This document shows positions 1 through 60,468 of a stretch of 64,000 nucleotides of DNA, in pieces. Origin of the DNA: Aureococcus anophagefferens (Eukaryota > Sar > Pelagophyceae > Pelagomonadales > Pelagomonadaceae); assembly GCF_000186865.1 (NCBI RefSeq), contig NW_008705570.1:1099395-1163394 (forward strand). Direction: 5' to 3'. Positions within the stretch are counted from its first letter, which is position 1. Each line of letters opens with the position of its first letter. The position numbers and the translations under genes are program-made. The notes under the pieces were generated by a model, which made no database searches, was not told where the DNA came from, and was given only the letters and a program-made list of their open reading frames with translations.

Positions 1-127
1 GTGCTTCGAGAACTCGACGAGAGCAATCGATCCGTCCAAAAATCAGCCGAATCGACTTCGATTTGATTGAGATAGAGAGTTCTGAAGTTTGGTGGGGACC
101 CCCCACCAGTGGTTGATTTCCACACAG
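1..127 (-). mobile_element. Introner element type 1, left end outside window
   Basis: This is the right-hand part of a type 1 introner lying in the minus-strand beta-helix gene. The visible part carries the shared core (GCTTCGAGAACTCGACGAGA) and ends with the terminal repeat GATTTCCACACAG. The neighbouring 8 bases (128-135) read GTCCGCGA on the gene strand and should be one copy of the target duplication, giving a GT 5' splice site. The other copy lies outside the window. In this and the following entries, strand means element orientation: plus is the orientation that reads TAGCTCGGTCAAATCGAAG in the core. Confidence 0.88.
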
Positions 128-135
128 TCGCGGAC

Positions 136-3100
136 GCGTGGAGCGTCGACCGCGTCAGCGAGGCCGCGCCGCCGTCGCCGGCCGCGTTACTTTTGAAGAC
201 GACGCCGCCGTGGACGCTCAGCGCGGCGTCCTCCGCCGCGAGGCCGCCGCCGGAGTCCGCGGCCGCGTTCGCTTCGAGCGCCGCGCCGGATCGCAGGAAC
301 GCGCGCGACCCCCGGCCCAGCAACAGGCCGCCGCCGTCCCTCGCCGCGTTGCCCGCGACGCGCCCGCGCAGGTCCACCGTCGACGTCTCCGCGACGTGGA
401 CGCCGCCGCCGGACCGCGACGCGACGTTGTCCTCGATCGCGCCGCCCGCGGCGACGACGACCCACGCGTCGCGCTCGCCCGCGACGCCGCCGCCGTCGAG
501 CGCGTCGCAGTTCCGCACGGCGCCGTCGTCGATCACCAGGACGTCGCCCGCCGCCAGGAAGACGCCGCCGCCGCGGTCGCCCGCGCCGCAGTCCGCGATC
601 TCCGACGCGCCGTCGACGACCAGGCTCCCGTGGACCCCGCCGCCGTCGCGCTCCGCGGCGCACGCGCGCACCGAGGACCCCCCCGACAGCCAGGCCGCGT
701 GGGGCGTGAAGATGCCGCCGCCGACCATGGCGCCGCAGCGCAGGATCGACGAGCCCGCGTCCGCGTGGACCGTGCCCGCCTGCACGTTGATCGCGCCGCC
801 GACGAACGTCGCGGAGCAGTCGGCGATCGTCGACGAGAACAGCGCCACGGGCACCAGCGTCGACGCGTCCTCCGCCTGCAACCCATAATAACTATAAATA
901 GCACCGCCGCCGTGGCCGCCGAGCGCCTGTGCCGGAAACGACCAGTGAGCTGGACCGGTCCGGCGAAACTTCTCGAGCTCGGTCGATTCGGCTCATGTTG
1001 GGACGAGTCGTTTGCTCTCGTCGCGCGCGTTCCAGAGAGCACTCGAACCTGTTCGATGACGCGCACATTGAAGTCGTGTCGACTCTTTTGTGTCCCGCCC
1101 GGCCGCGCGCGTGGCAGTTGCTGATCGACGACGCGTCCAGGACCACCGAGTCGCCCGACGCGACGCCGCCGCCGCTCTGGGCCGCCGTGCTGTCGGCGAT
1201 GCTGGAGCCCCGGCTGAGCGCGACGAGCCCGAAGGGTTCCGCGAAGACCGCGCCGCCGAAGCCCGCGTGGCAGTCCCGCAGCGCGCCGTCGACGACGACG
1301 AACGTCGCCGCGGCCGACACGTAGACGCAGCCGCCGCCCTCGTCGTCGCCGACGTCGCCGCCGGCGAGGGTCGCGCGGAGCACCGTCAGCGCCGCCATCG
1401 GCGTCAGGAATAGGAGCCGGTGCGGCGGGCCGACGGCTCGGAGCTCGTAGCGCGGCGCGGCGGCGTCGAGCTCGAGGCCCAGCGCCGCGTTCGCGAGCGC
1501 GGCCTCGCCGCCGCCGCCGAAGAGCGCCCGGGGCAGCATCGCGCCGGGGTAGCCCGCGTTTAAGGGCGCCACCTCGAGCGCCTCCGGCGCGTCGACGTCG
1601 CCGTCGAGCAGCGCCGTCGTCTCCGAGGAGCCCGCGAGCGCGTCGCGCACGCGCTCGAAGCGCGCCGACGGCTCCGGGAGCGCGGCGGACGGCGCCGGCG
1701 ACGCGGCGGCGAAGGGCGCCTCGCAGCCCAGGGCGACGTCGCCCGACCACGCCGGGGACGCCGGCAGGGAGAAGGTGTCGCGGAAGCCCGCGCGGCCCTC
1801 GACGCGGCCGAGCTGCCAGTGGACCTCCTCGGGGCTCGGGCCGTCGCCGGAGACCGTCAGCGAGTAGCAGACGTCGAGCTCGAGGCAGTGGAAGTCGACG
1901 GCGGACGCGCCCGACTCGAGGCCCCCGGACCCGACCGCGCCCCGTTCGCCGCGGATCTCGTAGGTCTCGCCCCAGCCGTCGCCCCAGAGGTCCCACATCT
2001 CCATGGGCGCCCAGACGCCGTCGCAGGCGCCGTCGTCGGGCCTCGCGACGCGCGCGTCGAGCGCCGTCGGCGCGGGCGCGACGGGCCCGTCCGCGTCGGG
2101 GAAGCCCGGGCACGACGCCGCGAGCGACGCGGTCCCCGCCTCGAGCGCGACGAAGCTCCGCGGCTCCTCGCAGGACACCGTCGTCCGCCAGAAGGCGTCC
2201 GCGTCCGCGGGCGCCGCGCCGGCGAACGCGGGCCCGAGGGTCCAGAAGCAGGGCGCGAAGACGCCCGGCCGCCCGCCGCTCACGTCGACGCGGTAGCAGC
2301 CGTCGCCGAGGCACAGGTCGTCGCGGACGTGCGCCGACGTGCGCTTCTCGCCGGCGGCGACGAGCGCCGCGGCGCCGTCGAAGACGGCGAGCGCGCGATC
2401 CTGCCACGCGCCGCGGAGCACGAGCGCGTAGCAGCGCCGCGCGTCCGACTCGAAGACGACGCCGCCGCCGTCGGCGCCGCAGTCGAAGCCGCAGGCGCCC
2501 GTCTGGTCGTCGTAGGCGCAGCCGGGCGTGGCCGCGCAGGCCGCGACGTCGCACGCGTAGCACGCGTCGCGCGAGCACGCGGGCGCGAGGAACCCGGCCG
2601 CGAGGTCGACGGCGCAGAGGTCGCCCGCGCCCGGCAGGCTCTGGCTCGCGCAGCCCGGCACGGCGTCGCAGGCGGACGCCGTCGCGCAGAGCGCGCAGGA
2701 CGCCGGGCCGCAGGCCTGCGCGCCGCAGCCGTAGTAGGCCTCGTCCTTGCCGCACGCGTCGCCGAACGCGCACCCGGGCGCCGCGTCGCAGAGCTGCGGC
2801 ACGGGGCAGAGCTCGCAGAGCTCCGCGCGGCAGGGCCCCATGCCGTCCTCGAGGAAGCTCAGGTCCTGGGCGCACGTCCCGAAGGGCGTCGTCGAGCAGA
2901 GGAGCAGCGCGTCGCACGCGGCGCCGGCGCCGCACGCGCCGCAGTTGACGTTCGAGCACGCCAGCGCGGCGTCGTCGGCCTCGCAGCGCGTCGCGTCCTC
3001 CGAGAGCTTGCAGCCGGGCACGTAGCCGACGGCGCAGAGGTCCTCGTCGCAATTGCCGCAGGCGTAGTAGGGCACGCACGCGTCCGGGCGCGCGCACGCG

Positions 3101-4119
3101 AAGGACGCGCCGAGCAGCGCCGGGTCGCCCTCGTAGAGCTCGCAGGTCTCGCTCGCGCGGCAGGCGCCCTCGCCGCAGGACTCGCAGTCGTCGCAGCGCG
3201 GGTCCACGCAGAGGTCGGCGCCGTCCGCGTCCTCGACGACCGCGCAACCCGCGGCGGCGCAGGCTTCCCCCGTCCCGCAGGCCCAGCAGTGGTCCGGGGA
3301 GCAGTCCCGGGCCTCGACGCACAGGCCCTCGTGGCGCATGCAGCCGTCCGTGGCGTCGCAGTCGTCCTCGAGGCAAAAGTAGCAGTTCGTCGGCGAGCAG
3401 GCCTCGACGCAGAGCTTGGGTCGGAAGTCGTCGTCCGCGCCGGCGAAGAGGTCGGAGGCGTCGACGAGGTCGCAGCCCCGGGCCTCGCACTCGTCTTCCC
3501 CGCAGACGTGGCACTTGCCCGCGCCGCACGCCTCGGCGCAGTAGTCGCCGAGCCACTCGCAGCCGTCCGCGGCGCCGCACTCGGCCTCGGCGCACGCCCA
3601 GCAGTCGTAGTCGCCCGAGCACTCCCGGAACGCCGTGCAGCTCGGGTGGAAGTAGTCCGCCGCCCCGGGCCCGCCGCGCGGCGCGTCGAGCATGCACCCG
3701 TCGACGCCCGCGCACTCGTCGAGGCCGCAGGCGAAGCACGTCGCCGCCCCGCACGCGTGATTCGTGTCGCAGAACGGGTAGTCGCCGCCGACCCACGCGC
3801 AGCCGTCGCCCGCGGCGTCGCACTCGTCCGCCGCGCGGCAGGACCAGCACGCCGTCTCGGAGCAGGTCTCGCCGCAGTAGTCGAACTCGGCCTCGTAGAA
3901 GCAGCCCGCGGCCTCGCAGCTCGACGCCGTCGGGCAGGACCAGCACTCGGCGTGCTCGCAGGCGTCGTCGCCGGCGTCGAGGCGGCGGCGCGACCAGGCC
4001 TCGACGAGGCGCCGCCACGCGGGCGAGTCCGCCTCCGCCGGCGGCGCTGCGACGCCGCCGGCGGACGGCCGCGACGCCGCGACGAGCGGCAGCAGCCGCG
4101 CGACCCAAAGCGCCGCCAT
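136..4119 (-). CDS. Secreted Cys-rich protein with Pmp-like beta-helix repeats (3' end off window)
   Basis: The protein starts at 4119 with a signal peptide (MAALWVARLLPLVAAS). About 450 residues of Cys-rich modules follow, roughly 40 residues each, of the form CxxCxxxxxCxxxxGC. Next come two WGDGWGETY-type beta domains, then a run of repeats with GGGV/GGAI turns and single Cys residues, the pattern of polymorphic-outer-membrane-protein or pectin-lyase-like beta helices. Exons are 4119-1111 and 926-136, and a third lies left of the window. The first intron (1110-927) is a diverged introner and joins NCH to ALGGHGGG in frame. The second starts at 135 with GT. A cell-surface or extracellular-matrix role is inferred, with no enzyme motif seen. 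The 1266 codons visible are not the whole protein. Confidence 0.75.
927..1102 (+). mobile_element. Diverged introner element, 176 bp
   Basis: This is an intron of the minus-strand beta-helix gene. Flanking direct repeats at 919-926 and 1103-1110 read, on the gene strand, GCGCTCGG (downstream) and GCGCGCGG (upstream), a 7 of 8 match. It keeps parts of the type 1 core (GAGCTCGGTCGATTCGGCT, TTGCTCTCGTCG, CACATTGAAGTCG) and a CACAG 3' end on the gene strand. The opposite terminal repeat has been lost. Its 5' splice site is GC. It is probably an old copy. Confidence 0.75.
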
Positions 4120-4246
4120 GGTGGCCGCCGCCTTCGAGGAGTTTCGAGGCTTCTTGACCTTCACCGCTCCTTCACCGTCGGTCGAGGACCCCCTAAGGAC
4201 CCCCGCGGACGATCGGGGAGACCGGCCACGCTCCTCTATGACCGCC

Positions 4247-5137: not shown

Positions 5138-5200
5138 CGATTTGGCCACAAGTGCGGGTTGATATTCGCCGTCAAACAAAACGCTGCCCTTTTGTGCACT

Positions 5201-6172: not shown

Positions 6173-6378
6173 GCCGCCGGCGGCGGCGCGGAGCAGGGGG
6201 GGCACGATGTCCTTCGGTTCTTACACGTCTCGTTACGCGGGGTTCGACGCAGCGCCACTGGCAACTCGACTTCTGGCGGCCGCGGCACACGCACGGTAAA
6301 TTTGGACGAAGGTAAGCTAGTTATCACATGCCAGGCTAGTCATCCGGGCTCGTTATCCCCCCCGACGGCGACCTGCGC

Positions 6379-7839: not shown

Positions 7840-7956
7840 GTGACGCCTCTGTGTGTGGACGCCGTCAATTACGCCGTCGCCACCGGTCGCCGGACAACCG
7901 CGGGGGGCTCAACAGGCACGAATTAAAGCACGAGGGGCGTCCCGCCCGGCCGGCCC

Positions 7957-9114: not shown

Positions 9115-9138
9115 CGGCCCGAGGCTGGGTCGTGGCCG

Positions 9139-19995: not shown

Positions 19996-22352
19996 TTCGA
20001 CGTCGACAGGCCCCTCGCGAAGATGGGCGCGTCCGGCGGCGTTCCGCAGAAGCAGGGCCCGTCGGGCGGCTTCCTGCAGAAGCAGGGCTCGAGGCCCGCG
20101 CTGGTGAAGCAGGCGAGCTCGCGCCTCGCGCCCGAGGAGCCCAGGGTGCGCAAGGCGACCTTCGGCCGGCGGACGCAGTTCGCGGCGCCGCGCGGCCCGC
20201 CGGCGCCGCTCGCGGCCGCGGCGCGCGCGCGGCACCCGTCCTTGGTCCGCGAGGCCGCGGGCGGCCGCCGGTCGCTCCGGGGTCCCCTGGGCGACCCGAG
20301 CCGGCGCAAGTCGCTGGGCATCGACCACCAGTCCATGCCCGTCACGGAGCAGCAGCTCCGCGAGCTCTTCTATATCGTCAACGTCGACTTCAAGGACACG
20401 TTCAACGCGAACGAGTCGCGAAAAAACGACAAGAACGTGCTGGACCGCGGCGAGTTCATCGAATTGTTGACGCGCCTCGCGCTGCTGCGCTACGCGGACC
20501 CGAAGGAGCCCGACGGCAAGGCGCTGCCCGAGGCGCTCGCGCTGCTCGTCGCGAACCACGTCGGCCCCTACATCAAGGCCGTCGCGGAGCTCAACGCGCC
20601 GGAGCTCGCGCCCGGCGCGGCGTCGCCGGAGTTGATCGGCAACAACGACGCCTTCCGGCGCGAGCTCTTCTACACGGAGAAGGTCGACGCCAGGGCAGCA
20701 AAAGAGAGCGAAATTCCCAACTTCAAAGGCTCCGATCTCGGCCATTTTCCACTCGTTTCGGCTGATTTTTGGACGAGCGATCATCTCTCGGAACGGTCTC
20801 GAAGCGTGGATGCTGTTTCCGGAACGCGCGCGCGCGGAACACTCACGTTGAAGCGACGTCGAACCACCCTTTTGCTGCCCAGGTCGACGCGGTCTTCGCG
20901 ACGTACGAGCCCGAGCTGAGGCGCATGTTCCAGGAGCACTGCTACGGCTTCGTGCCCGAGGACCACCCGAAGCACCCGTCGAAGAAGAAGAGGGGCGCCG
21001 CGGCGCCGCCCCTCGACATGTTCGGGCCCCGGGCGAAGGGCGAGGACGACGACGGCGAGGACAACGCGTCCGCGGTGCCGCGGCTCGCGTTCCGCGACTA
21101 CCTCGAGCTCATGTCGCGGAGCGGCATCTTCGAGATGCGCTACCTGAAGCGGGACCGGGAGAACCCGCGGGACGGCGTCGGGCGGGGGCGCCTGACCATG
21201 TACGAGATGCTCGCGGACGTCGCGAAGAGCCGGCTGCTGCCCATCGACGACCACGTGGCCATGGCGGAGAACCACGATTTGGCGTTTGGCGATTTCTTGG
21301 AGGCCGTGGGCCGCGCGATCTGGCGGCTGCAGCTGCTGGACGTCGACGGCGACTCCATGCACTACCACGAGCGCCTCGACAAGTTTTTGCGGAACCTGCG
21401 GTCGGAGCTCTACTTCACGGACGGCCACGGCGAGCTCCGCGCGCGCTACGTGCGGGGCAAGCTCCCGGCGACGCCCGCGTCGGAGGCGCGGCCCCTCGTG
21501 GACCCGGCGGAGCTCCGCGCGACGCGCGCGGGGCCCCAGACCGTCGTCGCGTGCGCGGGCGGCGCGGCGCGCATCGGCCTCAAGCTCAAGAACCTGGGCA
21601 AGAAGTTCCACGTGGAGCACCACGACATCACGGCGACGCAGATGGTCAAGTTCGGCCACAAGCTCAAGAAGATCGCGAAGCGCCACAAGAAGTCCGTCGA
21701 CGCGGGCGCCGTCGAGCCCCAAAAGGCCGACGCGGCGAAGAACCCCTACGCGCTCGCCTCCGCGAAGAGCGCGCGGTCGTTGTTCGCGCCCGTCATGTCC
21801 GCCGAGGAGATCCGCAAGGCGAAGCCCCGCGTCGACAAGTCGAAGAAGCCCAAGCCCAACGCCATGCTCGCGGCGTTCGTACGGCAGAATACCGAACCTT
21901 TGGAAGCCCTGGCCAAGTCCATCACGGTCTACGAGGAGCCCATCGCCGAGGCGCCGTCCTACCCCTCGACGCAGGCCGCGGGCGGCTACGCGCCCCCCGA
22001 CGACTACGCCGACGACTTCGAAGCGTCGCCGGCGCGGGCCAAGGTCGAGGAGCTGGAGAGCATCCAGGACGAGAAGCGGAAGGTCGCCGACGAGATCGAG
22101 GCGCTCAAGGCGCAGATCGCGCGCGAGCAGGCCAAGGAGCGCGCCGCCGCCGACGACGACGCCTACGACGACGACTTCGAGGAGGAGAAGGGGCGACGGC
22201 CGGCCGTCGACGTCGGCGACGCGTACGCGGACGACGCGTTCGACGACGACGCGGCCTCGCCGCCGCCGCGGCGCCGCGGCGCCGAGCGGTCCGCGGCCTT
22301 CGACGAGCCCGAGAGCGACTCCTTCGACGAAGAGGAGGGGCCCGCGACGTAA
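17782..22352 (+). CDS. Large leucine-rich-repeat protein with acidic linker
   Basis: 1456 residues in two exons (17782-20682 and 20883-22352) separated by a type 2 introner. Splicing joins TEK to VDAVFATYEPELRRMF in frame. Residues about 160-370 are RNI-like LRRs (NLDLSGTVV, SLRLDKCGLSD, VLSVSRNRVGD, DVNVSGNNVNG, RLDLSWNLLTK). The centre has a segment with GRHWYFFSQDGRVLCADDH. A run of Asp encoded by (GAC)n at 19963-19998 leads into a basic linker. The C-terminal half contains predicted helical segments resembling degenerate EF-hand pairs (QLRELFYIVNVDFKDTF, FGDFLEAVGRAIWRLQLLDV) and ends in acidic coiled coil. No catalytic motif is seen, so a scaffold or cytoskeleton/flagellar role is only a guess. 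The start is the ATG in good context at 17782; in-frame upstream Met codons lie over the opposite gene. Confidence 0.72.
20691..20882 (+). mobile_element. Introner element type 2, 192 bp
   Basis: Perfect 8-bp duplication GTCGACGC at 20683-20690 and 20883-20890. Terminal repeats are CAGGGCAGCAAAAG and CTTTTGCTGCCCAG, one mismatch apart when inverted. The interior contains GTTTCGGCTGATTTTTGGAC, shared with type 1. The GT at the start of the duplication and the AG at the element's end restore the LRR reading frame. Confidence 0.93.
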
Positions 22353-25808: not shown

Positions 25809-26952
25809 ATGAACGCGATGAGTATTCTGGGCAGCCTTTTCGCCCTCCTGGCGGGCATCGTCGGCGGCGACCCGGCCGGGTGCCTCGTCTACCTGCACCA
25901 GAACAAAGCAGGCGGCACGACCATGAAGGCCGTGCTGCGCGAGAAGCTGCGCCCGCCGGTGGCCGGCGCGCGCCGCGGGCGCTTCGGCCAGTGCGCCTAC
26001 GGCGAGTACCGCACCAACGGCTGCTGGCCGCCCAAGTACTGGAGCGGCGCCGGCGGCGTCGAGCGCTGGGTCTTCTACGGCGACGCCGTCATGGGGATGT
26101 TGGGCGCCGGCTGGCTCGGCTCCGTCCGCGGCGGCTCGCGCTGCCGCGCGTTCACGCTCTTCCGCGAGCCGACGGCGCGGCTCGTGTCCGCCTGGGGCTT
26201 CTGCAAGCGCGCGCGGAGCGACGAGCTCTGCGGGACCAAGGCGCTCGACGCGCGCAACGCGACGCTGCGCCAGTGGGCCAGGCACTGGCGCCACTTCGCG
26301 ACGACGCAGCTCGACCTCGCGCCCGGCCGGCGGCCGGACCGGCGCCGGCTCGAAGCGGCCTACGACGACGACGACGAGGGCGCGGCGTTTCATACGGACG
26401 CGGTCTGGGTCGCGCGGCGCGACGCGCGCGGCGACGCCGCGAACGACGCCGCGGCCGCGCGGCTCGCGGCGCGCGTCGCCGCCGGGTCCCTCTTCGCCTT
26501 CGTGGGCGTCCTCGAGCGCGCCGAGGACACGGCCAAGAGCTGGGACACTTACATGCCCCTGCGGGACGGGTCTTCCTGGCGCGACGCCTTCGCCTGTGTG
26601 GAAATCAACCAGTGGAACGCCCTGTCCAGCAAAAACTTCATACCTCTCTATCTCGATCAAATCGAAGTCGATTCGGCTGATTTTTGGACGAATCGATTGC
26701 TCTCGTCGAGTTCTCGAAGCAAAGTTGAAGAGCTTGCGTCGAAACTTTCAAATACGCTCAAATTGAAGTCGGGTTGAAGATTTGATTTCCACACAGGCCT
26801 TCGCGGGCAAGAGGCACAACGCCGACCCCGGCGCGCGCGCGTCGCCCGAGCCGGACGCGCGGCGCGACGCGGAGGTCCAGCGCTACCTCGCCGCCGACTA
26901 CGCCCTCTACCGGGCGGCGAACGCCGCCCTCGATCGCCAGCTGTCGCGATGA
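25809..26952 (+). CDS. Golgi-type sulfotransferase-like protein, split by an introner
   Basis: Exons 25809-26585 and 26797-26952, 310 residues. A short hydrophobic start (ILGSLFALLAGIVGG) acts as signal or anchor. LVYLHQNKAGGTTMKAVL fits the 5'-phosphosulfate-binding loop, and FTLFREPTARLVSAWGF fits the 3'-phosphate-binding motif of PAPS-dependent sulfotransferases of the heparan-sulfate 2-O or Sulfotransfer_2 kind. The intron is a 203-bp introner plus one copy of its 8-bp duplication. Removing it joins WRD to AFAGKRHNADPG in phase 0 and reaches a stop at 26952. Without splicing a false stop is met inside the element. A second gene of this type lies at 43876. Substrate is probably a cell-surface glycan. 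Confidence 0.78.
26594..26796 (+). mobile_element. Introner element type 1, 203 bp
   Basis: Perfect duplication GCCTTCGC at 26586-26593 and 26797-26804. Inverted ends are CTGTGTGGAAATC and GATTTCCACACAG, identical over 13 bp. The 5' splice site is the GC that starts the duplication, and the 3' splice site is the terminal CACACAG. Confidence 0.96.
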
Positions 26953-27912: not shown

Positions 27913-29615
27913 ATGGCATTCGTGAATCGCGTGCATCAATTGCTCGTCGCAGCGCTGCTCGTTGCAGAGCCGACGAATGCCTTGCATGAAAAATTTCCGG
28001 CGCGGTCGTCGTTGCGCGCGCGCGACGCAGCAACTCGCAGTCTGCGCATGTCCCTCGACGACGAGCCGCCGCGCGCCGCCGGCGCCGGCCGCCGGCCACT
28101 AGTACCATCCCTCGACGCCGAGCCGCCGCGCGCCGCCGGCACCGGCCGCCGGCCACTCTTGAAATCCCTCGCCGCCGCGAGCGCCGCGTCGCTCGCCGCG
28201 CCGGCGGCCGCGGCGCTCGGCCCCGAGAGCGAGTACCCGCTCTGGCTCGCGCTGCCCGTCGCGCCGTACTCGCGGCGGAAGACGATCCGCAGGGACCTGG
28301 GCCGCGGCGTCTGGACCTTCGACCAGATGATCGGCATCTACTACGTCCACGTGCCCATCCGCATGACCGTCGTCAAGCTGCGGCGGGGCGGCCTCTTCGT
28401 CTACGCGCCCGTCGCGGCCACGGACGAGTGCCTCGCGCTCCTCAAGGAGCTCACGGACGCGCACGGCCCCGTGAAGCACATCGTGCTCCCGTCCGTCGCC
28501 GTCGAGCACAAGGTCCTCGCCGGGCCCAGGGCAGCAAAAGGGTGATTCAACGTCGCTTCAACGTGAGTGTTCCGCGCGCGCGCGTTTCGGAAAAAGCACC
28601 TATGCTTCGAGAGCGCTCCGAGAGATGATCGCTCGTCCAAAAATCAGCCGAAACGAGTGGAAAACGGCCGAGATATGAGCCTTTGAAGTTGGGAATTTCG
28701 CACCCTTTTGCTGCCCAGGCCGGGCCCTTCGCGCGGAAGTTCCCCGCCGCGACGTTCCACGTCTGCGACCAGCAGTACTCCTTCCCGGTGCCGCTGCCGA
28801 ACGCGTTCCTGGGCCTGCCGCCCTGGACCCAGCCGCTGCCGCGGAGCTCGAAGGACGGGAACCCCTTCGGCGACGACTTCGACTTCGACGTGCTGACGGT
28901 GAAGCCGGGCCCCGGCAGCTACTACCAGGACGCGACGTTCGTGCACAAGCCGTCGAAGACGCTCCTCCTCTGCGACGCGCTCTTCGCGACGACGGAGGCG
29001 CCGCCGCCGATCCTCGAGTCGGACCCGGAGTACGTGCGCGCGCTCCTCTTCCACGCGCGCGACGGCCCGCTGGAGCGCGTCGCGGACACGCCCGAGAACC
29101 GGCGGAAGGGCTGGCGGCGCATCGTGCTCCTCTTCAACTTCTTCTTCCCCGGCGCCGCGACGCCGGACCTCGGCCTGAAGCCCCTGCTCGCGCTCGGGCC
29201 CTTCGAGCCCTACGGGTGGCGCGGCTGGAAGCCCTTCGAGTGGAAGAGCGAGGCCAAGGAGCGGCGCGCCTTCGAGGCCTTCGCCCAGAACGGGAAGCCG
29301 ACGATCCTCCCGATCATCCAGATCATCCTCGCGCGCGGCGACTCCGGCGCGGCGACGGCCGCGTGGGTCTCGCGCGTCTCGACGTGGGCCTTCGACCGCG
29401 TCGTCCCGCAGCACCTGGACGCGCCCGTCGACGTCGGGCCCGCGGGCTTCGCGGCGACCTTCGCGAACGTCGGGAACACGCGCTTCTGCGACGAGGACGT
29501 CGCCTTCCTCAAGGTCGCGGAGGAGGGGCCGCTCAAGTTCTCCGTCTACCCGTCGACGCTCACGCCGCTCCGCGGCCGGGGCAAGTGCGACCTGAACGAG
29601 GGGCTGTTCACGTAA
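27913..29615 (+). CDS. DUF4336 family protein, probably plastid-located
   Basis: Exons 27913-28518 and 28719-29615, 500 residues. GVWTFDQMIGIYYVHVPIRM, then GGLFVYAPVAATDECLALL, then GPVKHIVLPSVAVEHK match DUF4336, a family of plants, algae and bacteria related to metallo-beta-lactamase-fold proteins. The N-terminus has a signal-like segment (LLVAALLVAEPTNA) and an Ala-rich second hydrophobic stretch (SLAAASAASLAAPAAAALG) that could be a thylakoid or transit signal. Between them is a duplicated 20-21 residue unit (PPRAAGAGRRPL). The intron is a type 2 introner, and splicing joins HKVL to AGPFARKFPAAT in phase 0. The function is unknown. Confidence 0.78.
28527..28718 (-). mobile_element. Introner element type 2, 192 bp
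   Basis: Perfect duplication GCCGGGCC at 28519-28526 and 28719-28726. Ends CAGGGCAGCAAAAG and CTTTTGCTGCCCAG are the same as in the copy at 20691, but the interior is inverted relative to the host gene. The core ATGCTTCGAGAGCGCTCCGA matches type 1 elements. Length is identical to the other type 2 copy. Confidence 0.94.
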
Positions 29616-31433: not shown

Positions 31434-33517
31434 CTAGGCGCCTTCCGTGGCGTTCTCCATGACCGGGAGCACCGTCAGGCGGAGGTACGTGTGCGCGAGG
31501 GGCACGAGGTCCACGTCGACGACGGACCCGTTGGCGTACTTGCTCTGGACGGGCGAGTCCGGGACGTAGCCCTTGTCGTAGGATTTCACGCCCGTCGTCA
31601 CCTTGGCCTTGGCGGTGATCGTCGCCGGCGGGCGGTCGCGGTCGAAGGGCAGCCCGTCCGTCAGGGCCTCGAAACCGCCGAAGGTCAGCGACGCCGCGTC
31701 CGTCGGGTCGACGAGCGCGATCTGCCAGGGCGCGCCCGCGTCGACCATGACGAAGGTCGTCTCGACGAACGTGCCGTTGAGGGACGTCGTGTTCCGGCGG
31801 CCGGGCACGGGGAACGAGAACAACAGCGGCCCGCGGGTAATTTCCACCGCGTTCTTCGGCGCCGTCCACTTGTCCTCGAGCACCTTGATGGAGTGGGTGA
31901 AGAGCAGCGTCGCCTCGAAGGACGCGTCGTCGGCGGCCAGGCCCGGCACGTCGAAGAGGGCGCAGGGCGGCGCGTCGACCGTCGCGCCGCCGGCGACGAC
32001 GAGCGCCGCGGCGTCGGCCCAGCACGGCACGCGGAGCCTGAGCTTCCAGGCCTTGCCCGGCGTCCGCGCCACGGAGATCGTCGCGTTGTCGGCGAAGGGG
32101 TACTGGCCGCCCACGGACACGTTCGCCGTCGGCAGCGTCGCCGCGAACGGCGAGTAGCCCGAGACGACGATCGTCGCGCCGCCGTCCGCGGTCTGAAGCT
32201 GGGCCATGACGAACTTGGGCCAGCCCTGGTGCACGTTGCCCGTGCAGCAGCCGTTCATGCCTACGAAGCACGTCGGTGACGATGTTTCGTCGTTTCCCCG
32301 GTCGAAATCTCTCGAATATCGTCGCGCTGGTTCGTGCCGTAGCCCGACTTGCCGCCGAGCTGGATCTGGTTCACGGAGTGGTAGTACGCGTTGCCCGTGA
32401 AGCGGTCGTTCGTCGTCGCGGGCATCGCGTTGAACGCGACCCACTCGAGGCGGTCGAAGAGGCGCACGTCGGCGTTGAGCTCGTAGGACGTGCGCAGCGA
32501 GTACATGGCCTCGACGACGGAGCAGGTCTCGACGCCGTTCGTCGGGAGGTTCGGGAGCTGCGCGAAGCAGTCCGGCGCGGTGAACGTGCCGTCCGCGGAC
32601 CGCTCCCACTCGTCGATCCAGGCCAGCGCCGTCGCGGCGTTGCCCAGGTCCGTGGCGTTGCCGGAGACGCGGTACCAGGTCGGCCCCGTCTTGATGGCCT
32701 CCATGATGTTGACGCCGTGGTGGATCATGAAGTTCTTTTCGGTGGCGTCGCTCTTGTTCGGCCAGCAGTGGACGTCGCTCGGCGGGTGGAAGGGGTCGCC
32801 GCCCGTGAAGTAGTCCTCCCAGGGCAGGCGCGCGTCGGCCTGGGTCCGCACGAGGTCCATCAGGGACCAGAGCTCGCTGTCGTTGCGCCCGCGGTCGATG
32901 AGCCACTGGCACGAGATGAGGATCTCGTCGTAGCGCGCGTAGCCCCAGGGGTTGTGCGTGAACTTGGGCTGCTCGTCCTTGATCTGGGCCTCCATGGCCT
33001 TGTGGTGCACGACGAGGGCGTCGACGACGGCCTCTTGGGCCGTCGCGTTGGGCGCGTAGGGGCCCTCGCACTCCGCGTAGCTCTGCAAGGCGAGCGCGAT
33101 GATCATGCGGCCCCAGTAGTTCTCGTTCTGGTCGTAGTCGACGTCGCGGGGGATGTCGCCGCCGAGCATGCCCGTCGAGCCCACGGCGCCCAGGATCTTG
33201 GTGATCGCGGCCTCGCGGAGGTCGCGCATGGCCGCGCTGTCGACCTGGCACGTGAGCGGCACGAAGCCGTTCATGAAGTACTCGCCGCCCTGCTCCTCGC
33301 CGCCCGTCTTTTTCGGGTCCGCGAGCCACTTGGACGCGCTGATGCCGCCGCCGGACCAGAAGCCCAGGCCGAAGGTGCTGCCCGCGGCCATGAGCTCCTC
33401 CTCGGCCTTGAGCCAGCCCGCGGGCATGATGCGGCCCACGGGCAGCCGGTCCAGCGCCGGGGCGACGAGCTGGGCCGATGCGGTGGCGAGGAGCGCGAGG
33501 GCCGCGGCGAGCTTCAT
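31434..33517 (-). CDS. GH127-type beta-L-arabinofuranosidase-like glycosidase
   Basis: Exons 33517-32338 and 32260-31434, 668 residues. The signal peptide is MKLAAALALLATASA. The (alpha/alpha)6 barrel contains GGDIPRDVDYDQNENYWGR and HNPWGYARYDEIL. In GH127 a Glu and a zinc-bound Cys cluster carry out catalysis. Here GVETCSVVEAMYS supplies the Glu-x-Cys, and NGCCTGNVH supplies the Cys pair including the likely nucleophile. The beta-sandwich C-terminal part follows. The 77-bp intron lies three residues before NGCC; splicing yields GYGMNGCCTGN. Without splicing the frame closes before the catalytic pair. It probably acts on secreted or dietary arabinose-containing glycans; the exact linkage is unknown. 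Confidence 0.83.
32261..32329. mobile_element. Short introner-like intron, 69 bp
   Basis: Flanked by 8-bp repeats which on the gene (minus) strand read GCACGAAC upstream (32337-32330) and GCATGAAC downstream (32260-32253), 7 of 8 matching. The intervening sequence starts CAGCG and ends GCTTCGTAG. The splice pair is GC-AG. No inverted ends are seen. It resembles the 80-bp element at 59211 in its start and end. Confidence 0.6.
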
Positions 33518-41091: not shown

Positions 41092-42713
41092 GCGGGGCGG
41101 CGCCGGCCTTGAGCGTGACGAGGTCCGTCGGGGCGAAGACGGCGTCGTAGAACTGGGCGAGCGCGCGCGCGAGCTTGTCGCGCATCTCGGGCATGAGCGC
41201 GGACCCCGGCACGCCCGCGCCGGCCCACGCGCGCGCCACGAGCGTCTGCACGTCGCGATGTCCGTCGATGAGGCGCACCATGACGGCGAGGAACGCGTTC
41301 TGGGGCCCCGGCTGCACCTCGAATGAGAGCGGCTGGCGGCCGCGGACCGCGCGGGGCGCCTCGCCGGGCGGCCCCGGGACGACCATCGCGAGCTGGAGCT
41401 CCGCGCGGCGCCTTTCTGTTGCTGCGGTGTCGAGGACCGCCGCGAGGGCGAAGAGGCCCGCGGCGTCGACCTGGTTCGGCACGAGGAGCGTAAACGGGTC
41501 GAGCGGCGACGGCGGCGGCGGCGCCGACGGCCGCGTGAGGAGGAACTTGAGCATATTGACGTCGCCGAAGCGCACCTCGTTCACCGCCTCCCGCGTCCGC
41601 CGGTCGAGCGCGCCCAGGCCCGGCGGCAGGGGCGCGCCGAGCTTGTACCGGACCTCCGGCGCCCACCTGTGTGGATTCCAACCACTGGTTTGGGGGGTCC
41701 CCACCAAACTTCAGAACTCTCTATCTCGGTCAAATCGAAGTCGATTCGGCTGATTTTTGAACGAATCGATTGCTCTCGTCGAGTTCTCGAAGCACAGCCG
41801 AAGAGACTGCGTCGAAACTGTCGCATACGCTCACATTGAAGTCGGGTTGAATATTTGAATTCCACACAGGCGCCCACGCGCGGAGCTCGAGGCCCGCGGG
41901 GTCGATCAATTCGTCGTAGAGCGCGCGGACGGTGTACGCGCGGTCGCGCGGGTGGAGCAGCAGGTCCACCAATTCCTCGTCGGGCAGCGTCGCGAAGGGC
42001 CGCGGGTAGGTCGTGCGCTTGAAGTGGTTCGTGGGCGGCAGGTTCTCGTCGAAGGCCTTGACCTTGGCGAGCATCGACGCGTCGTCGTCGCCGTCCGCGC
42101 GGAGCTCGTCGCGGAAGAGGTGTTGGAGCTCGTAGACGGCCGAGCGGCCGACGGCCCCGTAGATCATGAGCGCCATGGCGCCGTCGGGCGCGAGGACGCC
42201 CTCGAGCGCCCGGAGGCCCGCGAGCGGGTTTTCGAGGTGGTGGAGCACGCCCGTGCTGAGGATGAGGTCGTACGGCTCCGCGGTCACCGCCGCGACGTCG
42301 AGGAGGCTCATGGCGTGGAGCGCGAAGTGCTCCTTCTCCACGAAGCCGAACCGCTCGAGGCGCGCGCGCGTCGTCGCCACCGACGGCGCCGAGAGGTCGA
42401 GCGCGGTCACGAACGCGCCCTTCCACGGGCGGAGCACGTGCGCCATGCCGACGACCGCGCTGCCCGTGCCGCAGCCCGCGATGAGGACCTTGAACCCCGT
42501 GAAGTCGTCGCGCGTGCCGCCGTAGTTGTACTGGCTCAGCTGTTTGAGGCTTAGCCAGTGGTACTCGCTCGGGATATCCCCCTCGTCCGTGCCCTCCTTG
42601 ACGGCGGGGTAGGGGAAGGCCTCGTAGCGCTCTCTGACCGCCTTGGTGACGTCGACGGTGACGGTTTGCGCGACCGTTGCGGCGGCGAGGGTCACGAGGA
42701 GGAGCGGGCGCAT
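41084..42713 (-). CDS. SAM-dependent methyltransferase, split by an introner
   Basis: Exons 42713-41878 and 41666-41084, 472 residues. A signal-like segment (MRPLLLVTLAAATVA) is followed by VRERYEAFPYPAV, a phrase seen in bacterial-type methyltransferases. The class I fold follows: KVLIAGCGTGSAV (motif I), TALDLSAPSVATTRARL (acidic loop), and YDLILSTGVLHHLENPLAGL (motif IV). After it come about 200 residues with RRTREAVNEVRFGDVNMLKFLL, a helical domain of unknown function. The introner sits between the domains, and splicing joins LRAW to APEVRYKLGAPL in phase 2 with a GT 5' splice site. The methyl acceptor is unknown. Confidence 0.78.
41667..41869 (+). mobile_element. Introner element type 1, 203 bp
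   Basis: Perfect duplication at 41659-41666 and 41870-41877, reading GTGGGCGC on the gene (minus) strand. Ends are CTGTGTGGATTCC and GAATTCCACACAG. It is inverted relative to its host gene when compared with the copies at 26594 and 58743. Confidence 0.95.
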
Positions 42714-43875: not shown

Positions 43876-45265
43876 ATGCTTGGCACAAACACCCAGAGCG
43901 TCGCGCGCGGCTCCGTTCTCAAGCGTTTGATGATGGCGCCGCGGCGCGGCGCTCCGTACCAGCGATCGCCCTACGCCGTGTCGCTCGGCGTGTGCATCGC
44001 GCTGCTGCTCGGCGCGTCGTGGTGGCAGGGCGTGGCGACCTACGAGTCGGCGTCGCCCGTCGTCGCCGCCGGCGACGCCGGGTCGGCGGCGCGCTGCGCG
44101 GCGGCGCTCTGGGGCGGGCCCAACGCGTCGCAGGTCGCCCTCGCGGCGTCCCTCGACGACGGCGCGGCCGCCGCGTGGCGTTCCTGCAGCGAGGCCGCGT
44201 ACCGCGAGCGCGACGCGACGCTCGTCTTCGTGCACGTGCACAAGGGCGGCGGCACGACCTTCGTGGGCATGGCCCGGGGCAACCGCGCGGGCCTCGCGGC
44301 CGTCGAGCGCAACGGCGACCCGTCCGTCGGCGGCGCGCGCGTCGAGTGGTGGGCGCTGCCGCCGCGGCGACAGAGCCGCTGGTTCGCGAAGCTGCGGGAG
44401 CGCGACGGCGTGCGCTTCGTCTCGACGGAGAAGGGCTTCCCGCGCTCGCCGACGCACCTCCTGGCGCCGAAGAAGCTCGTCTACGCCATCGTCGTCCGCG
44501 AGCCCGCGCGGCGCTTCGTGTCCTACTACTTTTGGAAGTGGCGCGACGCGTCCTACGCGGCCGTCGCCAGGGCGCGGCTCCGCGCGGCCTTCCCGGCCCT
44601 GCTCGGCGCCGGCCGCGAGGTCGCCCGGCTGCGGCCGGGCGCGCCGACCTTCGCGGCGTTCGTCGAGTCGGAGGCGCCGCTCGACGGCTACTACGTCCGG
44701 CGGCTGCTCGGCGTGCCGCCCGAGGAGGCGGCGAGCTTCCCGCTGGACGCCGCGGCGCTGGCCGACGCGACGGCGGTGCTGCGCCGCGTCTTCTCCCTCG
44801 TCCTCGTCACGGAGCGCCTCGGGGACTTGGCGCCCGTCGCTGTGTGGAAACCAAATCTTCAACCCGACTTCAATGTGAGCGTATGCGACATTTTCGACGC
44901 AATCTCTTCGGCTATGCTTCGAGAACTCGACGAGAGCAATCGATTCGTCCAAAAATTAGCCGAATCGACTTCGATTTGACCGAGCTAGAGAATTGTGAAG
45001 TTTGTCAGGACCACCCAAACCAGTGGTTGGCAGGCCGGTCGTGTCCGCCGCGCTCGGCTGGGACAGGCCCGACTTCGCCGCGTTCCACGCCAAGTCGAAC
45101 CCGGCGCCGGACGTCGCCAAGCTCGTCGCCTGGCGCGACGACTGGCGCGAGGAGATCGGCCGGCGCATGCCCCTCGACGTCCAGTTCTACGCCGTCGCCG
45201 ACGACCTCTGCCGGCGCCGCCTCGACGACGTCGCGCGGACGACGACGACGCGCGCGCGAGGGTAA
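43876..45265 (+). CDS. Type II membrane sulfotransferase-like protein, split by an introner
   Basis: Exons 43876-44831 and 45034-45265, 395 residues. A basic N-terminus and one membrane helix (YAVSLGVCIALLLGASWW) indicate a Golgi type II protein. TLVFVHVHKGGGTTFVGMAR is the 5'-phosphosulfate loop, and YAIVVREPARRFVSYYFWKW is the 3'-phosphate motif, as in the gene at 25809. Splicing joins GDLA to PVVSALGWDRPDFAAFH-like sequence in frame (phase 2) and reaches the stop at 45265. The ATG at 43876 is the earliest in frame; 43930 is an alternative. The two sulfotransferases probably modify cell-surface or secreted polysaccharides. Confidence 0.78.
44840..45033 (-). mobile_element. Introner element type 1, 194 bp, eroded 3' terminal repeat
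   Basis: Duplication GCCCGTCG at 44832-44839 and GCCGGTCG at 45034-45041, 7 of 8 matching. The left end CTGTGTGGAAACC is intact. The right end has lost 9 bp and now reads GGTTGGCAG, but the terminal CAG needed for splicing remains. The core is intact, in the reverse orientation to the gene. Confidence 0.92.
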
Positions 45266-50430: not shown

Positions 50431-50565
50431 CGCGACGCACGCCCTGGCGTCGCGGTCCGGACGTCAGCCGCTGGCGACGGGCACCGAGAGCGACGAGACC
50501 ATTTTCCGCTTTCGGCGAGTTCTTTTCAGCTGTTTCTTACACTCGGCGCTACAGGCACGACACGA

Positions 50566-51112: not shown

Positions 51113-51294
51113 ATGGACTTCGTGAGCAGACTTCTGGCGAACATTCGCGGCACAGGCGGCCCCGGACAACCGCTCGCGCCCCCCGAAGCGACCCCGAACG
51201 AAGAGGCGGACCGCCCAACTTTGGATCAAGTTTTGGCGGCGGGGACGCCTTCTCTGGTCGAGGAGGGGGTCTATCCGCCGGCGACGCCGGCGTC

Positions 51295-51328
<34 letters not shown>

Positions 51329-53096: not shown

Positions 53097-53249
53097 ATAG
53101 ACGCGTCTGTACTCGCCCCGCGGCGAGCGACGACACATGTTGAAGCAGAAGTTGACGCCAAGTGCTCCTGAAGAGTGAAGAGTCCCCGATGGCATCGTGG
53201 CAAGCTTCTACTGAGGCGCACGCTGTCGTCGCAAGCTTCTAGAGGACGC

Positions 53250-54375: not shown

Positions 54376-54420
54376 CCATGGTCACCCCGGGGCGACCTCA
54401 AAACTACCGAGCCACGCGCA
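54349..54420. repeat. 36-bp tandem duplication across two convergent stop codons
   Basis: CCCCGGGGCGACCT starts at 54349 and again at 54385, with the following bases also similar (AAAACGACC and AAAACTACC). The lipase stop lies in copy 1 and the opposite-strand methyltransferase stop (54404-54406) lies in copy 2. Confidence 0.8.
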
Positions 54421-55114: not shown

Positions 55115-55166
55115 CGCACCAGCAGAGTCGAAGTGCATGTTGAGCGGCAACTTGAACAAAAAAAAG

Positions 55167-56387: not shown

Positions 56388-56520
56388 GCCCTTTACAAGG
56401 ATGGAGAGGCTGGAGTTTGCTTCTCCTTGAGGCAATTATCCACGCTCGCTAAATTGCGGGCGCTGCAGCTATAGACGTGCGCCCGCTATAGTTGTGCGCC
56501 CGCAGGACAAAAACCCAGTG

Positions 56521-57873
56521 ATGGAGTCCATGGACGACGACGCGTTCTGGGACCAGGTCGAGCGCGACGACGGCGGCGCCGACGGCGGCGACTCCGACGA
56601 CGGCGACGCCGGCCCGAGCGTCAAGCTCGAGCTCGCGGGCATCACCGTGGCCTGGCTGCTGAAGCAGGGCGGCACGTGGCACGAGGGCATCCTGCTCGAC
56701 GAGGCGCGGTCGCGCGGGGTGTTTGTCATGGTGGACCCGAAGGGCGGCGGCGTCCGCGCGGGCGAGCGGCTCGTGCGCGCGCCGCTCGCCGCGACGCTGT
56801 CGAGCGCCGCCGCCGCGGACGACGCGGACGTGCGGCGCGTGACGGGCGGCGGCCGCGCCGAGGCCTTTGGGTTGTTGCTATTACTGACATTGAAGAAGCT
56901 CAAGGAGGCGGAGAAGACGCCCTACGTCGCGTTCCTCGAAAGCTGCTGCGACGGCGACTTCCTGCGGCCGCCGGACGTCGGCGCGGGCCCGCTGAAGGAC
57001 CACCTCTGGGCCGTCGTCGACGACCAGGACCGGGTCTTCGACGCGGCGGCGCGGCCGCTGCTGCAGGCCGACGCGTGCTTCGCGGACGTCGACGCGACCG
57101 CGTACGCGTGCGCGCGGAAATTGATCGAGACGCGCGCGTTCCAGCTCAACGGGTCGGCGTCGACGCGCGAGGACGCGGTGCAGGCGCTCGTGCCCGGCTG
57201 CGACTTCTTCAACTACGCGTCGCCGTCGCCGACGCGGCTCGTGGTCGACGACGGCTACGTTTCTATCGTAGCGACGGCGAACCTCCACCCGGACCACGGC
57301 GAGGTGTTCTGGGACTACGCGTCCGTCAACGGGAGCCCGCTGGTGTTGCTGTCCCAGTACGGGTTCCTGCCGGACGCGCTCGACGGGCCGCGCGCGCGCC
57401 ACGTCGTGCCCTTGAAAGCATCCGGCGCCGTCGGCGAGCTCCTCGACGGCGCGTGCGTCGCGCCGGACGTCGACGGCGCCGACGACGGCCCCCTGCGGCG
57501 GCGCCGCGCGGCGTCCGTGAAATTCTGCCGGGACCTCGAGGCGACGCCCATCGCGCGCGCCGCGCCGAAACCGCCGTCGGCCGTGGTCTGGTGGGTCGAC
57601 GTCGACGCGCCGGACGAGTCGCCGTTGCTCCTGGCGCTGCGCGCGGCGCTCGCGGCGCCCGACGAGCTGCGGAATAGGGACCGGACCGTCGCGGACTGGA
57701 TCCGGCCCCTCGAATCGAACGAGGCCGGCGCGCGCGCCGCGTTCCGGGACGCGGCCAAGGCCGTCTTCGACGGCCACTGGCGCGCGGAGGCCGCGCCGAC
57801 GCGCGTCGGCCGCGCGGCCCGCGACTACCAGATCGCCCACCTCTCCCGGCTCATGGCGCGGCTGGACGAGTAA
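56521..57873 (+). CDS. SET-domain protein lysine methyltransferase (SETD/Rubisco-LSMT type)
   Basis: 450 residues. The split SET domain has GVFVMVDPKGGGVRAGERLV at the start. In the catalytic half, ALVPGCDFFNYAS corresponds to the usual (V/I)P-x-x-D-x-x-N-H segment, with Tyr for His. EVFWDYASVNGSPLVLLSQYGFL corresponds to the YG-x-x-SN-x-x-LL-x-x-YGF block. The C-terminal helical substrate-binding domain follows, ending with NEAGARAAFRDAAKAVFDGHW. The change of NH to NY at a cofactor-binding position could weaken activity. It is cytosolic or plastid, with no signal peptide. It is divergent from the AlkB gene with 133 bp between starts. Confidence 0.78.
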   Translation: MESMDDDAFWDQVERDDGGADGGDSDDGDAGPSVKLELAGITVAWLLKQGGTWHEGILLDEARSRGVFVMVDPKGGGVRAGERLVRAPLAATLSSAAAADDADVRRVTGGGRAEAFGLLLLLTLKKLKEAEKTPYVAFLESCCDGDFLRPPDVGAGPLKDHLWAVVDDQDRVFDAAARPLLQADACFADVDATAYACARKLIETRAFQLNGSASTREDAVQALVPGCDFFNYASPSPTRLVVDDGYVSIVATANLHPDHGEVFWDYASVNGSPLVLLSQYGFLPDALDGPRARHVVPLKASGAVGELLDGACVAPDVDGADDGPLRRRRAASVKFCRDLEATPIARAAPKPPSAVVWWVDVDAPDESPLLLALRAALAAPDELRNRDRTVADWIRPLESNEAGARAAFRDAAKAVFDGHWRAEAAPTRVGRAARDYQIAHLSRLMARLDE

Positions 57874-57993
57874 TCGCGGCAACGTCGGTTCAAGAAAGCC
57901 TGCAAAAGCGGCGATTTTGTATTTTTGAGGTGGAGCGGCCTCCCAAGGCATCTCTGCAGCATCTCTGCAGCGGCGCGTCTCGCGGGGTCGCGC

Positions 57994-60468
57994 ATGGACA
58001 CGCCCGAGATGGAGCGCGCCGCGACGGCGCCGACGCGGTCCGTGAGCTACTCCATGTTCGACGACCTCGAGCGCCTGAAGCACGATTTCGACGCCGAGGA
58101 CGCGATGGCCAGCGCGCGCAGCGACGTCTTCTGGCGGAGCGGGCGGGACCCGACGGTGCTCAAGAATTCATTATCCATGATGGACCTGCCGCGCACGCCC
58201 TTCCAGGAGCGCCGCGGCACGCTCTACGCGTCGCTGCCCATGGTCGCGGTGCCCGGCCTCGCGACGCGGACGAACGACGTCGTCCGGGAGATCTCCTACG
58301 GCCGCTACGTCGCGGAGCGCGGGCTCTACCGCACGCTCGACGAGAGCGGCCGCACGTTCAGCGACCACGCGCGCCGGTCGCCCGCGGACCCGCTGCAGCG
58401 CCGCTACAACGAAATGCGCATGAAGCAGCGCCGGGGCGAGCTCGAGGGCTTGACGCGGAGCTACTCCTTCCTCCACCTCTCGCGGGAGCCGTCGGCGCTG
58501 AATTTGGCTTTGGTGCCGCGCACGACGGAGGAGGCGGCGCTCTACGCCGCGTGCCGCACCGCGGAGGACGAGCTCTTCAACGAGGTCGTGAGCGCGCCGC
58601 TGCTCATGGCCGCGGCCGTGGCGTGCGTGTCCCAGTTCCTCTGCGGCTACAACACGGGCGTCATGAACGCCTTCGAGGCGTCCGTCTTCCCGGGCCACTC
58701 GCAGGCCGCGTGGGCGCTCGCCGTCGCGGCGTTCGCCATCGGCTGTGTGGAAACCAACCACTGGTTTGGGTGGTCCTGACCAAACTTGAGAATTCTCTAG
58801 CTCGGTCAAATCGAAGTCGATTCAGCTGATTTTTGGACGGATCGATCGCTCTCGTCGAGTTCTCGAAGCCCAGCCGAAGAGCTTGTGTCAAAACATTCGA
58901 ATACGCTCACATTGAAGTCGGGTTGAAGATTTAAATTCCACACAGGCGATCGGCGGGCCTTTCGGCGCGTTGGCGGGCGGGCGCGTGGCGAACGCGAGGG
59001 GAAGACGGTCCGCGCTGCTGTTGGACGCGCTCCTCTTCCTCGCCGGCGGGTCCCTGTTCGCCCTGGCGCCGTCGATGGCGGCTTTGGTGCTCGCGCGCTT
59101 CGTCGTGGGCGTCGCGTCGGGATTAGCGTCCGTGCTCGTGCCCGTCTACCTCGGCGAGCTCGCGCCGCCGGTATTACGGGGCACCTTCGGCACGTGTACG
59201 CAGTTCGCCACAGCGTCGAGCACAGGCGTGTTTTTTCGCGTGAATTTCGCCTGAAGATGTGAAGGAATCCGACCCCGTCGCACTTGGTAGGTTCGCCATG
59301 GTCATCGGCATCCTAGCCGCGGACTGCGGCGCGTTCGTGGACGTGTCGTGGCGGTTCGCGTTCGGCGCGACGCCGGCGCTCGCGCTGCTGCAGCTGCTCT
59401 GCGCGCCCTACCTGCTGGAGTCGCCCAAGTGGCTGCTGGACCGCGACGCGGGGTCCGCGGCGGCGCGGTCCGCGCTGCGGCGGTTGTACGGGTTCCGCGA
59501 CGCGGAGGCGCTCGAGCAAGAAGTCATCCACATCATCGGCGACGGCGGCGGCGCGGCGAAGCGCCACGTGTCCGTCGGCGCGCTGCTCGCGGACCCGTCC
59601 CAGCGGCCCTTGCTGCTGAGCTGCGTCGCGTTGCACGTCGCGCAGCAGCTCTGCGGCATCAACGCGGTCTTCTACTACTCGACCATGTTCTTCGAGGGCG
59701 TGTTGGCGGACCCGGCGTTGGGGTCCGCGCTCGTCGCGGGCGTCAACGTCGTGGCGACCTACGTCGCCATCGTGCTCATGGACCGGCGCGGCCGCCGGGA
59801 GCTGCTGATGTGGTCCGCGGGCGGCATGGGCGCGTCGACGCTCGTGCTGACGGCGGCGCTGCTCGGCCTCGTGCCGACGGCGGCGTCGCTGGCCGCGGTC
59901 TGCGCCTTCGTGTCCTTCTTCGAGATCGGCCTCGGGCCCATCCCCTGGCTCATCGTCGCGGAGATGTTCGACGGGCCGGCGCTCGACGCGGCGCAGTCCG
60001 CCGCGTGCCAGGTGAACTGGGCCTGCAACTTCCTCGTGGGCCTCGGCTTCCCGGCGATCAACGCGGCGCTGGGCTGTGTGCAAATCAAATCTTCAACCCG
60101 ACTTCAATGTGCGCGTAATCGAATGTTTTGACACGAGCACTTCCGCCGTGCTTCGAGAACTCGCTGAGAGCAATCGATTCGTCCAAAAGTCAGCCGAATC
60201 GACTTCGATTTGACCGAGCTAGAGAATTCTGAAGTTTGGCCCCGACGTCCCAGCTCACTGGTTGATTTGCACACAGGCGCTGGGGCCCGCGTGCTTCCTG
60301 CCCTTTGGCGCCGTGCTCGCCGCGGCGTTCGCGTTCGTGAGAGCCGCGCTCCCGGAGACGAGAGGGCTGACGGTCAAGGACATCCAGGCCAAGCTCGCGT
60401 CCAAGGCGGTCGTGGTCGGCCTCCCGCGGCCGGGCTACGCGCCCGTCGACGGGCGGGGGGTCGTGTAA
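57994..60468 (+). CDS. MFS sugar transporter (GLUT/SP family) with three introner-type introns
   Basis: Exons 57994-58734, 58946-59202, 59291-60065 and 60277-60468, 654 residues. A ~200-residue cytosolic N-terminus precedes twelve membrane helices. Sugar-porter signatures appear only when spliced: GGPFGALAGGRVANARGRRS (loop 2-3), LESPKWLLDR, QQLCGINAVFYYST, LMDRRGRRELL (loop 8-9), GLGPIPWLIVAEMF and ALPETRGLTVKDIQ. QQxxGxN and GPxPW make a hexose or related sugar likely. Introns at 58735-58945 (GC), 59203-59290 (GT) and 60066-60276 (GC) each remove an element plus one copy of its duplication and restore frame (phases 0, 2, 0). It is the most introner-rich gene here. Confidence 0.9.
58743..58945 (+). 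mobile_element. Introner element type 1, 203 bp
   Basis: Duplication GCCATCGG at 58735-58742 and GCGATCGG at 58946-58953, 7 of 8 matching. Ends are CTGTGTGGAAACC and AAATTCCACACAG. It is in the same orientation as the host gene, opposite to the copy at 60074. Confidence 0.95.
59211..59290. mobile_element. Short introner-like intron, 80 bp
   Basis: Perfect duplication GTTCGCCA at 59203-59210 and 59291-59298. The sequence begins CAGCGTCGAG and ends GCACTTGGTAG. Removal joins TQ to FAMVIGILAAD in the sugar transporter. It lacks the type 1 and 2 terminal repeats and core. It shares CAGCG at the start and CTTxGTAG at the end with the 69-bp intron at 32261. Confidence 0.7.
60074..60276 (-). mobile_element. 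Introner element type 1, 203 bp, altered terminal repeats
   Basis: Perfect duplication GCGCTGGG at 60066-60073 and 60277-60284. Ends are CTGTGTGCAAATC and GATTTGCACACAG: the same base is changed at both ends, so the inverted repeat stays perfect. The core is in the reverse orientation to the gene. Confidence 0.95.

Follow-up and report, generated by a model that had tools for sequence, protein, structure and literature searches.

Gene-less repeated elements with 8-bp target duplications as probable introns in Aureococcus anophagefferens

Eleven introns in a 64-kb stretch of the Aureococcus anophagefferens genome (the window, meaning the whole stretch of DNA analysed; G000:C10:1099395-1163394 in a 49-Mb assembly of 86 contigs; window G+C, 71.6%) are very probably repeated elements without genes of their own, for which the duplicated 8-bp target of the host gene likely gives the donor and the element likely gives the acceptor. 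The element families, the duplications, the GY (GC or GT) start of the duplications, the AG end of the elements, and the restoration of frame where tested are read directly from the DNA. In the proposed mechanism, insertion of an element would duplicate 8 bp of the gene on both sides; with its first two bases (GC/GT), the upstream copy would likely provide the 5' splice site, and with its terminal CAG or TAG the element would likely provide the 3' splice site, so that the RNA would regain its original message once one duplication plus the element is removed. The presumed mover is a hAT- or P-type transposase acting by cut and paste, and insertions lacking GY, or lacking an acceptor at the downstream end, would mostly be removed by selection. 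Family A has an acceptor at both ends and lies in genes either way; family B has an acceptor at one end, with lineages of both polarities; and family C was seen one way only. Splicing at the predicted junctions would be expected in living cells, and one contig-encoded protein supports three of them.

Insertions in the window and their excision

Profile hidden Markov models of the elements (E ≤ 1e-4, over the 64-kb window) matched exactly the eleven sites listed in the initial annotation and no further element; the training sets included most window copies, the informative part of the scan being the absence of further elements. Insertions are named below by the position of the element. At the start of the window, a family A intron on the minus strand runs on past the upstream edge (1..135, −; element to 127, repeat GTCCGCGA on the gene strand at 128-135); its profile match spans the window start and the locus L011, and the upstream DNA gives an 8/8 repeat GTCCGCGA on both sides. 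It is followed by a 184-nt GC..AG intron of family A, subfamily A2 (insertion 927; 927..1110, −; profile match, frame kept), with 7/8 repeats GCGCGCGG/GCGCTCGG and ends intermediate between those of families A and B. Three plus-strand introns come next, namely a 200-nt GT..AG intron of family B (20691; 20683..20882, +; repeats GTCGACGC, 8/8), a 211-nt GC..AG intron of family A (26594; 26586..26796, +; repeats GCCTTCGC, 8/8), and, in a DUF4336 gene, a 200-nt GC..AG intron of the reversed-core lineage R of family B (28527; 28519..28718, +; repeats 8/8). On the minus strand, a GH127-like gene carries a 77-nt GC..AG intron of family D (32261; 32261..32337, −), with 7/8 repeats GCACGAAC/GCATGAAC and an element that has lost an inner piece, and a 211-nt GT..AG intron of family A is found at 41667 (41667..41877, −; repeats 8/8, frame kept). 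The family A intron at 44840 (44832..45033, +; 202 nt, GC..AG, frame kept) has suffered a deletion of ~9 bases inside the 3' terminal repeat, which spared the CAG before the duplication; since two more 7/8 matches lie farther downstream, the 7/8 repeat there is weak taken by itself. Finally, a sugar transporter gene on the plus strand holds a family A intron of 211 nt (58743; 58735..58945, +; GC..AG, repeats 7/8), a family C intron of 88 nt (59211; 59203..59290, +; GT..AG, repeats 8/8), and another family A intron of 211 nt (60074; 60066..60276, +; GC..AG, repeats 8/8).

Altogether, the repeats match at 8/8 positions for seven insertions (20691, 26594, 28527, 41667, 59211, 60074, and 127, the last completed by the upstream DNA) and at 7/8 for four (44840, 58743, 927, and 32261). 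With the boundaries fixed, a match of 7/8 or better has a chance probability of 0.0012 when computed from composition, and of 0.0018 in 200,000 random placements. Read on the gene strand, every repeat starts with G followed by C (seven) or T (four), and all eleven elements end in AG. The 8-bp repeats, their GY start, and the AG ends claimed in the initial annotation are thus borne out at every site.

Excision of one repeat plus the element was also said to restore the protein in all testable cases, and at the ten sites other than 127 it keeps the frame or yields a continuous protein. The frame of the codon model is preserved on both sides at 44840, 32261, 41667, 927, 26594 (where the right flank scores negative in the model), and 20691. 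Excision at 28527 yields a continuous DUF4336 protein, and excision at 58743, 59211, and 60074 a continuous sugar transporter. The longest open frame increases upon excision around 20691, 28527, 41667, and the sugar transporter; around 26594 (398 vs 410) and 44840 (769 vs 865), where other frames are long, there is no such gain.

The spliced sugar transporter, for which the nearest named protein is that of Chrysophaeum taylorii (56%), no entry named as Aureococcus being among the matches listed, agrees at 648/649 residues with the database protein P0121. All three junctions of the gene (58743, 59211, and 60074) lie within P0121. The contig encoding P0121 has 2,056 bases and the unspliced stretch requires 2,460; therefore, that contig cannot hold the unspliced stretch and represents either a cDNA or an allele in which all three elements are missing. 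Its source code, lgn, presumably stands for assemblies of public reads. In the DUF4336 gene, Pfam PF14234 matches over 4-79 before the 28527 intron and over 74-319 after it, and the residues at the junction are contiguous in P0001, P0002, and P0059, of which P0001 (from an 8.1-kb contig) probably comes from a relative whose site is empty. The spliced DUF4336 protein matched 422 database entries; among the 120 listed, the closest with a name is A. anophagefferens P0100, with ungapped pieces at 97% (162 aa), 100% (33), 100% (21), 95% (19), and 83% (24) identity. As the remainder of P0100, the 28527 junction included, seems by eye to be out of frame, it is uninformative on that junction in either direction. 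For the GH127-like protein, 17 database matches were found. Four homologues (P0242, P0243, P0244, and P0247) have no insert at the 32261 site, and P0241 has 26 extra residues there that resemble an in-frame translation of the intron, so that the 32261 insertion probably predates the divergence from the source of P0241.

Families, copy numbers, and search for a mobiliser

In place of the one introner system proposed in the initial annotation, we distinguish four families with differing orientation rules. Family A is 203 bp long with ends CTGTGTGG, and family B is 192 bp long with ends CAGGGCAG/CTGGGCAG. Family C (80-81 bp; CAGCGTCG...TTGGTAG) begins with CAGC followed by GT, and family D (~80 bp) reads CAGCGTC...TTGGTAG. 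The terminal inverted repeats pair at 15/18 bases in family A, 16/18 in family B, and 10/18 in family C; the inverted repeat is weak at most in the ~80-bp family of 59211 (C), and probably also in that of 32261 (D). A core of ~148 bases is common to families A and B (E, about 1e-12). This shared core with different ends first suggested an end-swapping between the two families, which we rejected: subfamily A2, whose two ends (CTGTGCCGG and CTGGGCAGG) resemble A on one side and B on the other, bridges A and B, so that ordinary divergence suffices.

Searched genome-wide with at most one mismatch, the 15-mer of the family A end gave 859 + 862 matches (control, 1 + 1). A search with half of the family A element returned 1,342 first-look candidates, 40 of which were scored; four of these are 100% identical over 77 bases, which suggests, from the sequence, that family A moved recently. 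The 14-mer of the family B end gave 1,073 + 1,089 matches (control, 68 + 113), and its paired ends gave 578 + 557 (control, 0 + 2). For family C, 91 candidates were found genome-wide, and 40 places, 59211 among them, were scored. Across sixteen 10-kb loci placed at round coordinates, with 150,303 readable bases in all, 21 elements were detected (A, 8; B, 8; C, 2; D, 3), corresponding to 1.40 per 10 kb. The window holds 11 elements in 64 kb, or 1.7 per 10 kb, and its density, described as striking in the initial annotation, is therefore typical of the genome. By rough extrapolation from 21 elements in 150 kb, the assembly contains thousands of copies. At one place (L015:4696-5662), three family A elements lie inside 1 kb with gaps of ~150 and ~210 bases, near nucleosome spacing.

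Target duplications of 8 bp are typical of the hAT and P transposon superfamilies, and CAG-type ends are typical of hAT. In this genome, no match was found to the hAT domain (PF05699) or to the KDZ domain, the control profile search being equally silent in each case. Nor was an autonomous partner with the ends of these elements found, or a transposase gene between such ends; one candidate (C1:357296-361794), with family A ends 4.5 kb apart, turned out to be two separate elements. A match to the P-type transposase domain PF21787 is present at C25:178372 (E, 1.4e-9) in a P-element-like relic. A decayed A/B introner core interrupts this transposase gene (L094:2300-2432; E, 3e-21), and the relic is thus host to an introner and gives no evidence that it moves these elements. 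Its readable part contains no 8-base end of A or B, no CAGCGTC, and no GGTAG, and only the 6-base pieces CCACAC (two) and GTGTGG (one). The relic (L094:1087-2280; G000:C25, ~178372-178818) has seven in-frame TAG and no TAA or TGA, with no obvious frameshift in the 399 codons ahead of the introner core; other kinds of stop occur farther downstream. A recoded stop, or decay in codons that end in G, may account for these TAG codons.

Splice-site rules, target choice, and orientation

The copy statistics draw on 46 copies of family A, 35 of family B, and 23 of family C (104 in all), namely those in the window and in further loci that pass the score and edge cuts, plus loci selected for families A (20 with both ends intact), B (20 with exact ends), and C (20 of high identity); the window copies at 127 (edge-cut), 927 (low score), and 32261 (family D) fall outside this set. 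The coding strand was assigned from the flanks, with the element unused, by a codon model for which this genome served as training set (G+C at third positions, 97%). In 97 of the 104 copies the flanking repeats match at 7/8 or better, and in 75 the match is exact. The strand counts leave out the seven copies below 7/8, among which 44840 falls owing to its deletion, as well as eleven for which no coding strand stood out, ten of these having GY on one of the two strands; for one family C copy, L025, the model favoured the opposite strand, its score being negative. In the remaining 86 of 97 well-bounded copies, the duplication always starts with G on the coding strand (GC, 51; GT, 33; GA, 2), giving GY in 84/86, with the two GA donors as counter-evidence to the rule, and the element ends in AG in all 86. 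GC donors make up 59% of the pooled sample and 55-65% by family. No strong base preference is seen at positions 3-8 of the duplication, and the intron phases 0/1/2 (40/18/28) are in line with those expected from the codon positions of GY (34/22/30; p = 0.38).

The start with GY could merely reflect a target preference of the transposase, uninformative on splicing. On the opposite strand, GY is slightly above its background in coding tiles (27/86, or 31%, vs 21.6%), as such a preference would produce; the asymmetry between the strands (84/86 vs 27/86) is very strong (p = 5e-22). Since a transposase is blind to the gene strand and the two ends of family A are alike, the occurrence of GY in family A at 33/34 on the gene strand versus 11/34 on the other must reflect the survival of spliceable insertions. 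In family B, GY likewise tracks the gene strand whichever way the core is oriented (31/32). The counts for family A contradict target preference, which is very improbable as the explanation of the rule. For family C, in which element and gene orientations agree in 20/20, a target preference relative to the element is inseparable from selection. Taken with P0121, which spans three junctions, the GY and AG rules in 86 sampled copies point, at the level of sequence, to the target duplication as the source of the 5' splice site, as the initial annotation had proposed. As a further sign of selection, a decayed unused acceptor end was sought in family A and was not found, both ends being intact in 9/9 copies not selected by their ends (with the added loci, 13 and 11 of 13). 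An apparent contrast between intact used and decayed unused ends (p = 0.008) was discarded, because it came partly from end-selected copies and from one misplaced boundary.

Reverse splicing of the elements as RNA, the mode of spread proposed for introner-like elements of fungi, would fit the near-identity of the introns and the clear coding flanks of 86/97 well-bounded copies. It is scarcely credible in view of the 8-bp target duplications, the terminal inverted repeats of families A and B (15 and 16 of 18), and the presence of family A in both orientations relative to the gene (13 and 21 copies by core orientation).

Family C lies in genes in one direction only (20 and 0 among the confident copies). 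In family B, the core is found in both orientations (22 and 10), with the CAG end on the downstream side of the gene in 32/32. Genome-wide, exact-end pattern matches of family B have an acceptor at exactly one end in 1,135 cases, at neither end in none (control, 2), and at both ends in 14 (control, 6). Of the 14, seven were judged real by eye and seven were judged to be register artefacts (CTGGGCAGGGC...). The core is reversed in 34 of 100 listed paired-end matches, as counted by eye. A tree of 34 family B copies, in which 25/31 inner branches are poorly supported, clusters the two core orientations (four changes, a value as low in none of 500 shuffles), and nine core sites differ in frequency between them. 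The orientations thus represent lineages and not random flips, and may have had a single origin. As the copies descend from few sources, the genome-wide counts of family B are not independent events. One end of family B would serve the transposase.

For the short families C and D, both splice sites might instead lie within the element, in which case eight duplicated and four element bases would be kept in the mRNA, lengthening the protein by four amino acids. In favour of such an internal donor, family C begins with CAGCGT, and a 77-bp family of Aureococcus sp. shows identical arithmetic (4 bp of element plus 8 bp of duplication) in PMC9860276. An internal donor does not require the duplication to start with GC/GT, as it does in 20/20 confident copies of family C and in 6/6 copies of family D, all of which have repeats of at least 7/8; moreover, P0121 lacks four extra residues at the 59211 junction, and the homologues have none at 32261. 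We therefore consider an internal donor unlikely and retain the duplication as the probable donor of these families. A joint reading, possible but on balance doubtful, would divide the ends of family B into a transposase-preferred end (the CAG start) and an end that a single base turns into a splice acceptor, with both polarities present; the duplication would be the donor in C and D, with C inserted one way, and the published four-amino-acid insertion of the similar-looking Aureococcus family may be an effect of GC donors on gene prediction.

Comparison with known introners

The core finding, transposon-made introns in Aureococcus, is already known, as the initial annotation recognised, and the same mechanism has been reported for this alga. 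The introners of A. anophagefferens described by Huff, Zilberman and Roy in 2016 (Nature) are reportedly short transposons with direct repeats and terminal inverted repeats, inserted in both orientations, one splice site being said to be borne by the element and the other co-opted from the duplicated gene sequence. Insertion between nucleosomes is a further reported trait of introners of this type. The present elements resemble those introners in the many near-identical introns across the genome, the 8-bp duplications, and the predicted splice sites split between element and duplication. As to insertion in both ways, family A is found in both orientations (13 and 21 copies), family C in one (20 and 0), and family B in both by core (22 and 10) with the acceptor end downstream in all 32. 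The parts that deserve a further look are the orientation rules and the GC-donor majority. The strand-resolved counts confirm how introns that leave the protein unchanged can arise from transposons. The polarity of family B provides a natural experiment on the conversion of a transposon end into a splice acceptor, and, with GC donors in the majority, junctions of this kind may be misplaced by gene prediction that disfavours GC-AG introns.

The elements share 8-bp duplications with both the hAT and P superfamilies and CAG-type ends with hAT, and differ from such transposons in that no transposase gene was found between the ends. Fungal introner-like elements that spread by reverse splicing are not known to have duplications or inverted repeats, whereas duplications are present here in 97/104 copies. 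The A. anophagefferens introners of the 2016 study are taken up in PMC10228655 and PMC7789003. According to PMC7789003, inverted repeats are always present in these elements and constant in length, and the splice motifs are canonical; in contrast, the inverted repeat of family C is weak at most, and GC donors are found in 51/86 copies. The parts of the introner literature covered (passages of PMC10228655, PMC7789003, PMC9860276, and PMC9481584) mention neither a polar family B nor a majority of GC donors for this alga. The GC donors amount to 59% in our pooled sample, above the 0-50% per family given in PMC9860276 (Gozashti et al. 2022). Family C would correspond to the 77-bp Aureococcus sp. 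family of that study, which is said to hold both splice sites and add 12 bp, whereas family C here behaves as if the donor came from the duplication. Gozashti et al. include Aureococcus sp. and describe the combination of a duplication-derived donor with an element-borne acceptor as one type of introner, a type that the elements reported here fit.
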